Part shown: in pieces, positions 6,581-55,717 of the stretch | Layout: every line of letters starts with the position of its first letter | Position numbering within the stretch: the first letter of the stretch is position 1 | Assembly (NCBI RefSeq): GCF_900115755.1 | Contig: NZ_FOXQ01000002.1 | Coordinates: 248,001 to 312,000, forward strand | From: Parafilimonas terrae | GTDB taxonomy: Bacteria > Bacteroidota > Bacteroidia > Chitinophagales > Chitinophagaceae | Direction of reading: 5' to 3' | Length of the DNA stretch: 64,000 nt | Made by a program: the position numbers and the translations under genes | Notes under the pieces: generated by a model | Told to the model about the DNA's origin: nothing | The model's input: only the letters and a program-made list of their open reading frames with translations | Databases searched by the model: none

Positions 6581-9316
6581 TTGAAAAGGATTTTGCTAAA
6601 CGTTTTATTCTTCTGTACGCTGCACTGCGTAAATGCTTCTGCGCATAAATATGCTGTTTATACAGAACCTCAACAGAACGCAAGGATTGAATATGGCATC
6701 TCTAAATTGCAGGCTGCATTAAGTTCAATTAATAGTAATGTAATTGTTGTTCACGGACAATCAAAAGACTTGCAGGCCAATTCAATTGTAATTGGTTTTA
6801 TTAATGATGAAATTGTTCAGTCTGCAATTAAACAACAGGGTTTTAAAATTGATGAAGCGCCCGGCAAAGAAGGCTTTATTATCCATTCTTCCAATAACAT
6901 TACGGTTATTACCGGCGCCGATGCTTCCGGCGTTATGTATGGTTGCTTTGAGTTGGCAGACAGCATTAATCTCAATAAAAAATTACCTGTACAGCTTACC
7001 ATAAAAGATCAGCCGCAAATGGTTATGCGTGGCGCTTGCGTGGGTTTGCAAAAGCCTTATTTGCTTCCCGGAAGAGCGGTGTATGAATACCCGTTAACAG
7101 AAGAAACTTTTCCCTGGTTCTATAATAAAAAGCTTTGGGTTCGTTATCTCGATTCACTTGCTGAATATCGTTGCAACAGTTTGTATTTATGGAATGGCCA
7201 TCCGTTTGCTTCGCTGGTTAAAGTAAAAGATTATCCTTACGCTGTTGAAGTGGATGAAGCAACATTTAAAAAGAATGAAGATATGTACCGCTTTCTTGCC
7301 GAAGAAGCAGACAGGCGCGGTATTTGGCTGATACAATCTTTTTATAATATCATTGTTTCAAAACCCTTTGCAGAACATCATCATCTTAAAACGCAGGACA
7401 GGGACCGGCATATTATTCCCGTTATCGCAGATTATACAAGAAAATCCATTGCGGCCTTTGTTGAAAAATATCCAAACGTTGGTTTGCTGATAACGCTTGG
7501 CGAAGCTATGGAAGGCGCCGGCCAGGATGATATAGACTGGTTTACCAAAACAATTATTCCCGGTGTAAAAGATGGTTTAAAAGCTGCAAATATTACAACC
7601 GAGCCGCCCATTATTTTACGTGCGCATGATACCAATGCGCCGAATGATATAAACGCTGCAAAGAATTTATACAGCAATTTATATACAATGGCAAAGTACA
7701 ATGGCGAGGCGCTCACAACGTACCAGCCACGCGTTTCCTGGGCTGATCTGCACCGTACATTAAGCCGTTTGGGCACCGTACAAATTGAGAATGTACATAT
7801 ATTGGCCAACCTTGAACCTTTTCGTTATGCAGCCGATGATTTTATTCAAAAATGTGTGCAGGCCATGCATACTGTTTATGAAGCGAATGGGTTGCATTTA
7901 TACCCGCAGGCTTCTTACTGGGATTGGCCTTACACTGCTGACAGCGCTTCAACGCCTTTATTGCAAATTGAACGCGATTGGTTATGGTATAAAGAATGGA
8001 GCCGTTATGCATGGAATTGCAACCGTGACCGTGCAGGTGAAGTAAATTATTGGAGCAATCAAATTGCTTTGCAGTTTAACTGCAATAAAGATGATGCAAA
8101 AAACATTTTACTTGCTTACGAAGCCGCCGGGGAAATTGCACCGAAATTATTAAGACGCTTTGGTATAACGGATGGCAACCGCCAAACATTAACGCTTGGC
8201 ATGCAGATGACACAACTGGTAAATCCTGAACGTTATGGCTTATTTAAATTATTATATGAATCGGAAGCGCCGGAAGGTGAACCGCTTGCCGAATATGCGC
8301 AGAAAGAATGGGAACATCAGTTGCATATTGGCGAAACGCCGGTGAATGTTATTAATGATGTAAAGAAAGCTGGCGATGAAGCAGTGGCTTTTATCAATAA
8401 AATAAATACCGTGCCATTAAATAATGATGAGTTTAAAAGAATAAAGAATGATATGTATTGTTACCAGGCGCTGGCATATCATTATGCTTATAAAGCGCAG
8501 GCTGCACTATATGTGTTGAAATATAAATACTCGAATAACACACAAGACCTCGACAGCGCTTTATTGCCTTTGCAAAAAAGTGTTGAATGGTATAAAACAT
8601 TAACGCGGTTAACCAACACTACTTACCGTTACGCAAACAGCATGCAAACAGCGCAGCGAAAAATTCCGTTTCGTGGTGTTGACGCTACGTTTATAAAATG
8701 GAATGAAGTATTGCCTGCGTTTGAAAAAGAACTGCAGGTGTTTACACACAAGCTTGATTCATTAAAACATCCTTCAGCAAAAGAAAATACGGGCGTTACA
8801 TACCTGCAACCCGCTGATGTTACAATTAAGAATGATAATATTATTTCTTATCCGTTAACCAGGAATGCGCAGCCTTTCATCAATAATTCAACTGCTGTAA
8901 TAAATATTGCACCGGAATTAAAAAACATAAAAGCTATTAAAATTGATACTGCTTTTCAAAACAACAATGAAACCCTACTGCGTTTTCATAACGATAAGCC
9001 TGTGAAATTTTTAGTTGGCTATTTTGTTTCGGACGATAAAACATTCTTAAAAGCGCCTGAGCTGGAAACCAATGCCAACGCTAATAATCATGGCGAAGCA
9101 GATGTGGCCATTGCCAATGCGCTGGTGATAGAAAATATGCCTGCGGTGAATATTCACACCTATCTTTTTAATGCAGGCGATAATGAGCTCCTGTTGCCCA
9201 AAGGCAAAGTGTTATTACTCGGCTTTATTGATGCCGCTGAACTTGTAAAACCTTTTGATGCCGGATTAACGCCATCCGGTGAATTAAAAAATGTTGACTG
9301 GTTATTTGAAAACTGA
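6581..9316 (+). CDS. Secreted glycoside hydrolase, GH138-like (candidate RG-II alpha-galacturonidase)
   Basis: A 911-residue protein with a signal peptide (cleavage near residue 20). Residues 30-145 resemble the alpha/beta domain that precedes the barrel in GH67 and GH20 enzymes (G-F-I-I-H, V-I-T-G-A-D-A-S-G-V-M-Y-G), followed by a TIM barrel and a helical C-terminal half. Candidate acidic catalytic residues are E308 in T-L-G-E-A-M-E-G and E376 in Y-N-G-E-A; their 68-residue spacing is close to the pair I recall for GH138. GH138 removes alpha-linked galacturonate from side chain A of RG-II. A GH67-like or unclassified family is the main alternative. The start is TTG at 6581 because the signal peptide begins there. 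The next gene follows after 6 bases. Confidence 0.55.
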   Translation: MKRILLNVLFFCTLHCVNASAHKYAVYTEPQQNARIEYGISKLQAALSSINSNVIVVHGQSKDLQANSIVIGFINDEIVQSAIKQQGFKIDEAPGKEGFIIHSSNNITVITGADASGVMYGCFELADSINLNKKLPVQLTIKDQPQMVMRGACVGLQKPYLLPGRAVYEYPLTEETFPWFYNKKLWVRYLDSLAEYRCNSLYLWNGHPFASLVKVKDYPYAVEVDEATFKKNEDMYRFLAEEADRRGIWLIQSFYNIIVSKPFAEHHHLKTQDRDRHIIPVIADYTRKSIAAFVEKYPNVGLLITLGEAMEGAGQDDIDWFTKTIIPGVKDGLKAANITTEPPIILRAHDTNAPNDINAAKNLYSNLYTMAKYNGEALTTYQPRVSWADLHRTLSRLGTVQIENVHILANLEPFRYAADDFIQKCVQAMHTVYEANGLHLYPQASYWDWPYTADSASTPLLQIERDWLWYKEWSRYAWNCNRDRAGEVNYWSNQIALQFNCNKDDAKNILLAYEAAGEIAPKLLRRFGITDGNRQTLTLGMQMTQLVNPERYGLFKLLYESEAPEGEPLAEYAQKEWEHQLHIGETPVNVINDVKKAGDEAVAFINKINTVPLNNDEFKRIKNDMYCYQALAYHYAYKAQAALYVLKYKYSNNTQDLDSALLPLQKSVEWYKTLTRLTNTTYRYANSMQTAQRKIPFRGVDATFIKWNEVLPAFEKELQVFTHKLDSLKHPSAKENTGVTYLQPADVTIKNDNIISYPLTRNAQPFINNSTAVINIAPELKNIKAIKIDTAFQNNNETLLRFHNDKPVKFLVGYFVSDDKTFLKAPELETNANANNHGEADVAIANALVIENMPAVNIHTYLFNAGDNELLLPKGKVLLLGFIDAAELVKPFDAGLTPSGELKNVDWLFEN

Positions 9317-9322
9317 TGAAGC

Positions 9323-55400: not shown

Positions 55401-55717
55401 GGATGTGCATGCGTAACACATCATCCAAACAAGGTTTATTGATTGTTGCTGATAGTTTATTAAGCATGAGCGCATGGCCTTATACAGAAGAAAATATAAA
55501 CAATGCGAAACATACCATTGATTTAAAAAACCAGGGCTTTATTACGCTGAATATTGACCTTATTCAGATGGGCGTTGGCGGCAATGATAGCTGGAGCCCG
55601 GTTGCTGCGCCGCTGGAACAATACCAGGTAAGAGCAAAGGATTATAAATATAGATTTTATATATCGCCCTATAACCCGGAAAAAATAAAAAATCGTGTAA
55701 GCATTATTAGATTTTGA
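52439..55717 (+). CDS. GH2 beta-galactosidase, LacZ type
   Basis: A 1092-residue secreted enzyme beginning with GTG at 52439, right before a short signal peptide (about 1-20; an ATG 7 bases upstream is out of frame). The domain order is that of E. coli LacZ: jelly roll ([20 protein letters not shown]), immunoglobulin-like, barrel with acid/base E496 in L-G-N-E-A-G and nucleophile E591 in [10 protein letters not shown], second immunoglobulin-like and a C-terminal beta-galactosidase small-chain domain ([10 protein letters not shown]). Beta-galactosidase on pectic side chains is the expected activity, for instance the galactose residues of RG-I or RG-II. Last plus-strand gene of the hydrolase block. 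Confidence 0.92.

Follow-up and report, generated by a model that had tools for sequence, protein, structure and literature searches.

Rhamnogalacturonan II (RG-II), a component of plant primary walls, is a very complex plant sugar polymer. The closest described system for its degradation, that of Bacteroides thetaiotaomicron, comprises BT0977–BT1030 and further loci; among its genes are BT0984 (GH139), BT0996, BT0997, BT1002, BT1003, BT1012, BT1017 and BT1020. Two other known systems resemble parts of the locus described below. Sialic acid scavenging employs a GH33 sialidase, an SSS-type transporter and N-acetylneuraminate lyase, and the oxidative L-fucose pathway proceeds through L-fucose dehydrogenase, fuconolactonase, fuconate dehydratase, KDF dehydrogenase and an FAH-family hydrolase. 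To our knowledge, few bacterial fates have been described for aceric acid, apiose, Kdo, Dha and the methylated sugars of RG-II, and we know of no catabolic route for 2-O-methyl-L-fucose.

The DNA analysed here is a stretch of 64,000 nucleotides from Parafilimonas terrae (the window; contig NZ_FOXQ01000002.1, positions 248,001–312,000), in which genes lie on the forward strand unless marked (−). Judged from its sequence, the region is very probably an island that a member of the Chitinophagaceae devotes to RG-II breakdown. It encodes families known to cover the main RG-II linkages, an importer of the SusC/SusD type, symporters and enzymes of galacturonate catabolism. Positions 6581–55717, given as the limits of the island in a preliminary description, encode GH138, GH95, a GH2 enzyme matching the BT0996 model, a PL1-like protein, GH140, GH43, GH143 and GH142, as well as a BT1017-like esterase, GH141, GH78 and a BT1003-like GH127. 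These limits proved too narrow. A GH139-type gene (L155:12771–15083, −), a further GH2 (L155:15287–17668) and GH137 (L155:17975–19069) lie upstream of the window and GH28 (L157:173–1792, −) downstream, and GH106 is encoded on another contig of the genome, so the term "near-complete" understated the set. With GH139 and GH137 just upstream, all of GH137–GH143 are present once the flanks are included. Every CAZy family named in the preliminary description was detected in profile or PDB searches, with weaker support for PL1; families with RG-II as their main known substrate co-occur as it had argued, and none of the GH138, GH141, GH142 and GH143 candidates was assigned to an unrelated family.

The island thus shares with the B. 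thetaiotaomicron system GH138 itself, GH137 and GH139–GH143 in or beside the window, a BT1017-type methylesterase, a BT1003-type GH127 (aceric acid hydrolase) and SusC/SusD import. Its place outside the usual gut Bacteroides was borne out by the Chitinophagaceae host and by the closest named match, Ilyomonas limi, of the same family. The window does contain a single SusC/SusD pair and two SSS symporters, as first described, but the contrast drawn with a multi-locus Bacteroides organization is weak because several other mapped RG-II loci are long contiguous islands too, and a published B. thetaiotaomicron table gives one long RG-II locus, BT0977-30 (PMC3243724). We compared 14 RG-II regions, four of them picked on GH138 alone. 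Since comparable loci are found in other members of the phylum, the island is of a known kind with a variant architecture. It differs from the B. thetaiotaomicron system in several ways. GH143 and GH142 are separate genes here, GH137 stands apart from the GH2 glucuronidase, no DUF3826 is attached to the methylesterase, GH141 has a rhaM-type domain added to it, the regulators belong to the AraC and LacI types, and the island also includes an SSS-lyase pair and a CoA-transferase cassette. The cassette is also found in genomes of group g63, which we take to be Bacteroides.

The roles proposed below follow from the enzyme families. The backbone would be opened by GH28 and the PL1-like pectate lyase (21670–23340; PDB 9buj, E 1.8e-38; NF041900 (PelZ) 138 bits, cut-off 840), for which the profile search gave no Pfam match. 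Fragments would be carried to the periplasm by the SusC-like TonB-dependent transporter (16499–19711; PF13715, PF07715) and the SusD-like lipoprotein (19723–21525; PF07980, 184 bits). Methyl esters would be taken off by a BT1017-like pectin methylesterase without a fused DUF3826 (37530–38930), the gene previously called "STN-esterase", which matches PDB 6goc ("DUF3826 domain-containing protein", presumably BT1017) over residues 23–461 (E 3.1e-137). Two separate DUF3826 proteins are encoded at 15687–16340 and 33129–33818 (PF12875, 206 and 222 bits); DUF3826 has been described as the C-terminal domain of BT1017 (PMC7939467).

Chain A is likely stripped by exo-enzymes of families GH95, GH2, GH141, GH138, GH78 and GH140. 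These include the α-D-galacturonidase GH138 (6581–9316; NF049878 1447 bits, cut-off 1300; PDB BPa0997, E 3.4e-277), a GH95 α-L-galactosidase/fucosidase (9323–12130; catalytic domain PF22124, 544 bits), the GH140 β-apiosidase (26583–27968; PF13204, 368 bits), a GH141 α-L-fucosidase with a C-terminal rhaM-type mutarotase domain (42789–45302; insertion domain PF21231, 232 bits; PF05336, 38 bits) and a GH78-type α-L-rhamnosidase (47980–50238; PF21209, 270 bits; PF17389, 102 bits), whose reading frame is listed from 47911 and whose start we place near 47980. The BT0996-like GH2 β-D-glucuronidase gene is broken by a frameshift near 13.9 kb in this assembly: its first half (12127–13899) matches positions 363–911 of NF049877 with 778 bits and its second half, comprising DUF4982, malectin and a C-terminal domain (13950–15680), positions 910–1400 with 529 bits, and both halves match a single reading frame in 11 other loci. 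We assign no linkage to two more GH2 glycosidases, which scored below their NCBIfam cut-offs, GH2b (39826–42597; PF02836, 111 bits; NF049891 962 bits, cut-off 1700) and the LacZ-type GH2c (52439–55717; PF02836, 265 bits; NF052611 903 bits, cut-off 999).

Chain B may be dismantled by GH137, GH139, the GH2 enzymes and GH127, with GH106 encoded elsewhere. The GH127 (50241–52250; 357 bits) has PDB 5mqo, which we take to be BT1003, as its best match (805 bits, next 403). BT1003 has been named an aceric acid hydrolase (PMC10850190). The upstream PF18961/DUF5703 protein carries the published active-site residues of GH139: all ten compared BT0984 residues (W403, Q411, N412, Q461, E472, W490, E561, W683, D723 and N729) are matched at fixed spacing in two blocks, and W162, which is variable in the family (45%), had no match at the first offset. 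Such a GH139 identity, which makes a vague annotation testable, would predict 2-O-methyl-α-L-fucosidase activity for this protein. The target of GH139 lies in chain B (PMC12282258). For chain D, the Dha-hydrolase GH143 (29679–31529; PF24067, 423 bits; PF22585) and the β-L-arabinofuranosidase GH142 (31532–33082; PF22422, 277 bits) are the predicted exo-enzymes; they align with the N-terminal (55–57%) and C-terminal (59–60%) halves, respectively, of single GH143-GH142 reading frames of 1104–1116 aa in two other loci (G293, G445). A GH43-type arabinofuranosidase is a candidate for chain F and, like PL1, a weak call (27968–28918; PF04616, 38 bits; NF052546 62 bits, under the cut-off). A GDSL esterase (28921–29679; PF13472, 82 bits) was present in 2 of the 14 compared loci, and an AP_endonuc_2 TIM-barrel protein with a signal peptide-like N-terminus (38930–39790; PF01261, 64 bits) in nine.

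Chain C would be handled by a GH78 enzyme and a sialidase-fold hydrolase. The latter, a BNR_2 protein (33824–34897), has a sialidase-type BNR propeller (PF13088, 299 bits) and matched only anhydrosialidases in the PDB (E 6e-6). In 4 of 12 loci the corresponding protein forms a fusion with GH78, in keeping with the Rha-Kdo of chain C, and this makes it a testable candidate Kdo hydrolase where annotation had been vague. Next to it are encoded SSS symporter 1 (34927–36504; TIGR00813, 240 bits, over the cut-off) and a DHDPS/NAL-superfamily lyase (36568–37524; PF00701, 109 bits), candidates for the import and aldol cleavage of Kdo or Dha. The lyase N-terminus has no signal peptide by eye, and YECPxPYKR and YHKDT, possible contexts of the catalytic Tyr and Schiff-base Lys of a class I aldolase, were seen by eye in four of five such proteins; symporter and lyase adjoin in five loci, the present one included. 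Sialic acid scavenging has the same row of sialidase-fold hydrolase, SSS symporter and NAL-superfamily lyase, but here the set lies in an RG-II island, the hydrolase is fused to a rhamnosidase in some relatives and the lyase has an altered GXXGE region, its substrate probably being Kdo or Dha. By this analogy, the chances are about even that the three proteins form a set for release, import and cleavage of Kdo (or Dha).

A DUF6298 protein (23361–26510; PF19815, 816 bits) was found in all 14 RG-II regions. Among 395 genomes of the phylum, full-length DUF6298 occurred in 19, GH138 over the cut-off in 18, a full GH143 propeller in 21 and strong DUF5703/GH139 in 22, and each of the 18 GH138 genomes also carried the other three. 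A structure model combines an N-terminal right-handed β-helix with a C-terminal half that resembles GH140 (8t9w, Z 18.4, 327 aligned, rmsd 3.7; BT_1012 as 5msy, Z 17.4), with GH5-labelled entries close behind (Z 15–17). DUF6298, an RG-II marker, may also be an enzyme that acts on the backbone or on apiosyl linkages; we give catalysis on RG-II about an even chance, and the vague annotation can now be put to the test. A non-catalytic role in RG-II binding or as a scaffold is somewhat doubtful and still deserves serious weight. DUF6298 is distant from GH140 in sequence, with no PF13204 (Apiosidase) match at E 0.001 and only 76 C-terminal columns aligned by hhalign (probability 63%), and RG-II loci do hold proteins of unclear role, such as BT1017-DUF3826 and BT1022, neither of which bound RG-II in one report (PMC7939467). 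Against such a role stand the two enzyme-like folds and several residues that do not vary across 16 sequences, E820 and D874 among them.

Beside GH138 lies a cassette for a MaoC protein, an SBP-like protein, two class III CoA-transferases, a lactonase and a dehydrogenase. The MaoC protein (PF01575, 85 bits) has D37 and H42, presumably the hydratase/dehydratase Asp-His pair, conserved to 97% or more with 75 homologues. The SBP-fold protein (2–928; PF13416, 29.5 bits) starts upstream of the window; its full 386-aa form (L155 joined to the window) has no signal peptide by eye, and the family occurs in 77 of 80 cassette loci. In CaiB1 (925–2097; PF02515, 309 bits) and CaiB2 (2094–3239; PF02515, 311 bits), the residues we take to be the class III CoA-transferase Asp are D173, conserved to 97% or more when aligned with 65 homologues, and D170, invariant in five aligned proteins and likewise conserved to 97% or more with 92 homologues. 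They are followed by an Amidohydro_2 lactonase of the L-fucono-1,5-lactonase family (3262–4104; PF04909, 111 bits; NF052480 175 bits, below the cut-off of 400) and a Gfo/Idh/MocA dehydrogenase, GFO1 (4198–5277; PF01408, 52 bits), present in 74 of the 80 loci. The cassette likewise adjoins GH138 in other Chitinophagaceae RG-II loci (Ilyomonas limi L158, Niastella, Longitalea, Sediminibacterium), and in L158 the genes are arranged as they are here, MaoC through GH2, at identities of 64–85%. In many Chitinophagaceae loci a RhaT-family symporter gene separates lactonase from dehydrogenase; this gene is missing here and in L158. In the window and the surrounding 53 kb, no relative of RhaT, FucP, FAH or Zn-ADH and only a distant SDR (26%) was found; this cassette is thus without an adjoining symporter.

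Our best guess, held at slightly less than even confidence, is that the cassette burns a rare deoxy sugar, 2-O-methyl-L-fucose, in a CoA-dependent manner. Dehydrogenase and lactonase would convert it to the 2-O-methyl aldonate, the CoA-transferase pair would form the CoA thioester and MaoC would eliminate water; transferases and MaoC would take the place of an aldonate dehydratase, a step that would be blocked by the 2-O-methyl substituent, and the 2-keto-3-deoxy acid so formed would join the oxidative L-fucose route. The cassette shares with that route the lactonase family and the dehydrogenase logic, whereas CoA-transferases and MaoC replace its CoA-independent dehydratase. Elsewhere the cassette is often accompanied by a RhaT or FucP symporter (FucP over the cut-off in L226), and in G225 L-fucose dehydrogenase (over the cut-off), lactonase and FAH hydrolase genes of the oxidative pathway adjoin it, although fucose-pathway genes are rare beside it overall (SDR in 2, ADH in 3 and FAH in 1 of 80 loci).

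An alternative substrate is aceric acid: oxidation and opening of the lactone would yield a branched dicarboxylate, to be cleaved as its CoA thioester. Aceric acid and 2-O-methyl-L-fucose both occur in chain B, and small carboxylates are the usual substrates of class III CoA-transferases. Of 49 genomes with the cassette, 42 encode a GH127 resembling BT1003 (identity 53% or more; in two pieces in G466), and in 5 of 80 loci its gene is no more than 10 kb away from the cassette; a Gal-aceric acid side chain has been reported (PMC11739564). This GH127 is missing from the other seven genomes, each of which carries GH139, GH95 or a GH95-like gene at most 10 kb from the cassette. The FucP and RhaT families of the cassette symporters, the L-fucose genes in G225 and the absence from the cassette of a lyase to finish the route also speak against aceric acid, which we consider unlikely. 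D-Apiose or apionate is a clearly less probable substrate. Strong GH140 occurs in 45 of the 49 genomes (three lack any match, and one more has just a 35-bit fragment), and OiaK-like and OiaX-like genes adjoin the cassette in L213, L215, L222 and G135, but OiaK and OiaX would already provide a CoA-free apionate route, in L215 they scored under the cut-off (442 and 517 of 700 bits), and FucP-type symporters do not point to apiose.

Slightly less probable again is that the cassette is an unrelated set that stands beside RG-II loci by chance. Twenty of 57 full-flank loci had no RG-II-type neighbour when GH139, GH137 and GH106 were left out of the thresholds applied; GH139 is present in eight of these and GH137 in a ninth, so that 11 have none of the three. 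Yet the transferase pair was found in 16 of 25 genomes with a strong RG-II marker and in 0 of 25 others (Fisher p 4e-7, ignoring kinship), and the cassette recurs with RG-II or GH139 genes. In several families its genes alternate with those for chain-B enzymes; it is embedded in a cluster with GH137, GH106, GH127 and GH139 in G135 and in clusters with GH139, GH127 and GH106 in G193 and G011. Strong GH139 is missing in 4 of the 49 cassette genomes, the pair itself in 4 of the 18 GH138 genomes, and in G237 the pair occurs without MaoC or GFO1 beside it. Compact and shared by many genomes, the cassette would thus serve the breakdown of a methylated or branched sugar. Tentatively, and with rather less than even confidence, we propose as a whole that RG-II degraders possess a CoA-dependent 2-O-methyl-L-fucose pathway, a core but hitherto undescribed two-domain enzyme family in DUF6298 and a Kdo hydrolase that is in places fused to a rhamnosidase. 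If right, this would extend RG-II breakdown from the bonds cut to how its odd sugars are burned and provide markers for RG-II degraders in soil and gut metagenomes.

That the island aims at some other pectic or fucosylated glycan, with the RG-II enzymes as bystanders, is most improbable: GH2, GH43, GH78, GH95 and GH105 are polyspecific families, but GH137 to GH143 stand together with the BT1017-like esterase and BT1003-like GH127, and the same 18 genomes share GH138, GH143, GH139 and DUF6298.

Freed galacturonate would enter the UxaCBA route, encoded by uronate isomerase UxaC (55839–57257, −; PF02614, 690 bits), altronate dehydratase UxaA (57330–59000, −; PF20629, 328 bits) and tagaturonate reductase UxaB (58972–60507, −; NF002969, 552 bits, over the cut-off). 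A LacI-family regulator (60872–61906; PF00532, PF00356) and a GH88/GH105 unsaturated galacturonyl hydrolase (62078–63970, −; PF07470, 339 bits) lie at the same end of the window. The island further encodes a second Gfo/Idh/MocA oxidoreductase (45309–46397; PF01408, 86 bits), SSS symporter 2 (46400–47977; TIGR00813, 236 bits, over the cut-off) and an AraC-type regulator with a cupin domain (5454–6389; PF12833, PF02311), of which an 85% identical copy occupies the same place in I. limi L158.

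The annotated genes from 5454 to 55717 all lie on the same strand, with a largest gap of at most 191 bp; the host genome comprises 4.99 Mb in 44 contigs, and the window covers positions 248001–312000 of contig C28. Comparisons with Pfam, NCBIfam and the PDB bear out the preliminary description and yield GH138, GH95, a BT0996-type GH2, a PL1-like protein, GH140, GH43, GH143, GH142, a BT1017-like esterase, GH141, GH78 and GH127; both that observation and its main reading as a locus for degradation of rhamnogalacturonan II (RG-II) are upheld. The GH127 protein is of the BT1003 type, scoring 805 bits against PDB entry 5mqo, which we take to be BT1003, and 403 bits against the second-best entry. 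BT1003 has been described as the aceric acid hydrolase (PMC10850190). The span originally assigned to the locus, 6581–55717, is too small, with further RG-II genes on both flanks. In the stretch directly upstream of the window (L155) are found a PF18961 (DUF5703) protein, our GH139 candidate (12771–15083, minus strand), a GH2 (15287–17668), a separate GH137 gene (17975–19069), recognised by a 516-bit match to positions 4–358 of the model for the BT0996 family, and a MaoC gene. On the downstream side, a GH105 lies inside the window, a GH28 lies downstream of the window, and a GH106 is encoded on another contig, C36. This kind of locus is already known but its gene architecture here differs; new here are DUF6298 as a marker, the assignment of DUF5703 to GH139, the chain C fusion and the CoA cassette. 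No RG-II polysaccharide utilization locus of Chitinophag- taxa was described in the titles and abstract openings of the open-licence PMC articles listed.

The BT0996-like GH2 gene (12127–15680) is split into two ORFs, with a frameshift near 13.9 kb: 12127–13899 covers positions 363–911 of the BT0996 family model and 13950–15680 covers positions 910–1400. A single ORF holds both GH2 parts in 11 other loci, and the frameshift may be either an assembly error or a real break. Another GH2 glycosidase (39826–42597) had no match in the PDB at E 1e-60. The GH141 protein (42789–45302) carries a rhaM-type mutarotase domain at its C-terminus and aligns over its full length with homologues in three other genomes (G205, G011 and G021). 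An AP_endonuc_2 TIM-barrel protein (38930–39790) with a signal peptide-like start is found in 9 of 14 RG-II regions.

For the DUF5703 protein, active-site residues of the B. thetaiotaomicron GH139 enzyme BT0984 were taken from PMC12282258 and compared in two blocks, each with its own fixed offset. Because an 8-residue difference lies between the blocks, a search for the GH139 fingerprint as one pattern found nothing. At the offset of the first block, W403, Q411, N412, Q461, E472, W490 and E561 match in the P. terrae protein, as do W683, D723 and N729 at that of the second. No agreement was seen at the first offset for W162, a residue found in 45% of the GH139 family (PMC12282258). Copies in G225, G011, G221, L193 and L229 show the same agreement in both blocks; those in six further loci (L205, L206, L207, L212, L220 and L234) keep W403, Q411, N412, E561, W683 and D723 and have Q461, E472, W490 and N729 changed. 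A strong DUF5703 match is present in 22 genomes of a 395-genome sample of the phylum, including all 18 with GH138. On this residue agreement, we assign PF18961 (DUF5703) to GH139; DUF5703 was not found named in the listed open-licence PMC papers on GH139. For a GH95-like protein group (c15), an assignment to GH139 is not supported: its hits in the PDB are of GH95 type, the strongest at 60 bits, and the QN pair is absent by eye. Members of c15 occur near CoA-transferase genes in L205, L207, L212, L219, L220 and L223, immediately ahead of them in L205 and L219.

In the same phylum sample, with weak partial matches set aside for these families and for GH139, full-length DUF6298 is encoded in 19 genomes, GH138 over the cut-off in 18 and a full GH143 propeller in 21. 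Eighteen genomes are common to the three sets, and the nineteenth DUF6298 genome, G339, has GH143; the co-occurrence of DUF6298 with GH138 gives a Fisher p of 3e-30, kinship ignored. DUF6298 is present in all 14 RG-II regions compared, within 0.7 kb of a PL1-like gene in 13; the regions are 80–100 kb long, so absences are soft. DUF6298 extends beyond this lineage, because Bacteroides ihuae, a named control, also carries it. AlphaFold models were built from 16 sequences, and since confidence for the whole length was modest (pLDDT 65), the C-terminal half was also folded alone (pLDDT 74). The model contains a right-handed β-helix at approximately residues 80–413, similar to polygalacturonase 1bhe (Z 19.1) and BT_1002 (5mqp, Z 17.2). 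Its C-terminal half is nearest to the GH140 apiosidases 8t9w (Z 18.4) and BT_1012 (5msy, Z 17.4), followed by GH5-labelled entries at Z 15 to 17, where rows at most 1 Z apart count as tied. By sequence, DUF6298 is not GH140: it has no Pfam match to that family, profile comparison with GH140 aligned just 76 C-terminal columns, and a sequence search of the PDB found no match at E 0.01. DUF6298 is read as a candidate two-module RG-II enzyme. DUF6298 was not found named in the open-licence PMC literature, where DUF3826 is named in a paper on BT1017 and in one unrelated paper.

A row of genes for the sialidase-fold protein BNR_2 (33824–34897), an SSS symporter (34927–36504) and a DHDPS-type lyase without a signal peptide (36568–37524) resembles the layout of sialic acid scavenging. 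In 4 of the 12 other loci with BNR_2 (G205, G010, G293 and G445), a fusion protein places it after a GH78 rhamnosidase; Pfam domains confirm the fusion in the first three. In chain C of RG-II, rhamnose is attached to Kdo. The presence of Kdo in this chain has been documented (PMC12168206), and a Kdo hydrolase is tabulated among the GH33 activities in PMC9120202. The symporter and lyase genes are adjacent in five loci including that of P. terrae; in G339 both proteins are distant (47% and 24%, respectively), and for G135 and G221 the lyase value is 42%. The best named families for the lyase score far below their cut-offs. The set suggests uptake of Kdo or Dha and its cleavage to pyruvate.

Outside the span first proposed for the locus, positions 2–5277 together with about 19400–20000 of L155, which includes the upstream MaoC gene, form a cassette of MaoC, SBP-fold protein, two class III CoA-transferases (CaiB1 and CaiB2), lactonase and GFO1 dehydrogenase. 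It is not peculiar to this organism: at least 568 CaiB2 relatives are among the 592 pattern matches listed. Scanning species genomes with a CaiB2 alignment, we compared the best 80 loci of these at least 568 relatives, which encode MaoC in 75 cases, GFO1 in 74, CaiB1 in 65, the lactonase in 60 and a RhaT-like protein in 54. The SBP-fold proteins (2–928 in the window), which have no obvious signal peptide, are cassette members in 77. A FucP-type symporter is found in 23 of these loci, RhaT at 40% identity or more in 50 and neither in 15, several of them on short contigs; the 117 kb read around the P. terrae cassette contain no FucP or RhaT.

Of the best 80 loci, 35 have GH138 at most 10 kb from the cassette; they include loci of named species of Niastella, Longitalea, Sediminibacterium and others. 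By stated identity thresholds, an RG-II-type neighbour is present in 47 of the 80 and in 37 of the 57 with full flanks; of the remaining 20 full-flank loci, 8 carry GH139 and a ninth carries GH137. In a hand-picked set of 50 genomes, of which 25 have a strong marker and 25 do not (some of the latter with weak partial matches), the CaiB pair occurs in 16, namely 14 of the 18 GH138 genomes, G339 and G237, and in none of the 25 without a strong marker; Fisher values for this co-occurrence ignore kinship. The pair is absent from five genomes with GH139 or GH143 and no GH138 over the cut-off (G422, G428, G071, G088 and G245). G237 (L261) shows a variant arrangement in which the CoA-transferase pair stands beside enoyl-CoA hydratase and aldehyde dehydrogenase genes, without MaoC and GFO1.

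Two sugars found only in RG-II, aceric acid and 2-O-methyl-L-fucose, occur in its chain B. Aceric acid was initially favoured as the cassette substrate and was then set behind 2-O-methyl-L-fucose on the distribution of GH127, the cassette neighbours, the GH139 residue match and gene orders including those of G135 and G225. Among 49 cassette genomes (those of L176 and L206 left out, MAGs that may be incomplete included), strong GH139 and strong GH140 are each present in 45 and BT1003-like GH127 in 42; all seven lacking the latter encode a GH139, GH95 or GH95-like enzyme at most 10 kb away from the cassette. The genes of G135 run GH139, SASA esterase, SBF transporter, a racemase-like ORF (by eye), OiaK-like, OiaX-like, GH127, GH106, FucP, MaoC, GFO1, SBP2, CaiB, CaiB, SBP, GH2, GH137, a 924-aa ORF (GH78 by eye), SusD and SusC, which places the cassette inside a chain-B cluster. 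In G225 it adjoins a divergent group of a lactonase (268 of 400 bits), an L-fucose dehydrogenase that exceeds its cut-off of 300 with 357 bits, a Zn-dehydrogenase and a hydrolase of the FAH family, best matched by the model for 2,4-didehydro-3-deoxy-L-rhamnonate hydrolase (378 of 500 bits). This group represents steps around a 2-keto-3-deoxy deoxyaldonate, and the same group is seen by eye in G394. An L-fucose dehydrogenase (404 bits) adjoins GH139 in G193, FucP from L226 exceeds the L-fucose permease cut-off, and the window lactonase belongs to the L-fuconolactonase family with a score below the cut-off. Since ordinary aldonate dehydratases require a free 2-OH, activation of a 2-O-methyl acid to a CoA thioester followed by elimination would be plausible. 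On the fucose-pathway genes, the permease match, the GH139/GH95 neighbours and the 2-OH argument, we propose 2-O-methyl-L-fucose as the candidate substrate. Its weak points are the 11 full-flank loci without any RG-II-type, GH139 or GH137 neighbour, the fucose-pathway genes, which seldom adjoin the cassette (of the best 80 loci, SDR in 2, ADH in 3 and FAH in 1) and are missing from its surroundings in P. terrae, and the SBP-fold proteins, which the scheme does not explain. No mention of methyl-fucose was found in the open-licence PMC papers listed for catabolism and CoA-transferases. In L215, L222, L213 and L257, genes for an OiaK-like kinase and an OiaX-like RuBisCO-family protein adjoin the cassette with an SBF transporter, in L215 additionally with an Asp/Glu racemase-family protein; such genes likely represent an apionate route in RG-II degraders.

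Among 59 relatives including P. terrae itself, seven, P. terrae among them, have GH138 over the cut-off; G031, with GH138 in two pieces each below it, was left out of the count. Full GH138 is present in none of the seven sampled congeners, three of which are less than 70% complete. The closest named relative among the matches listed is Ilyomonas limi (L158, Chitinophagaceae), with identities of 85% for AraC, 80% for CaiB2 and 69% for GH138 and an unchanged gene order from MaoC to GH2. G375, G277 and other genomes of the g63 group encode, about 50–60 kb from GH138, a second protein of 560–585 aa that matches the GH138 model in its C-terminal part only.
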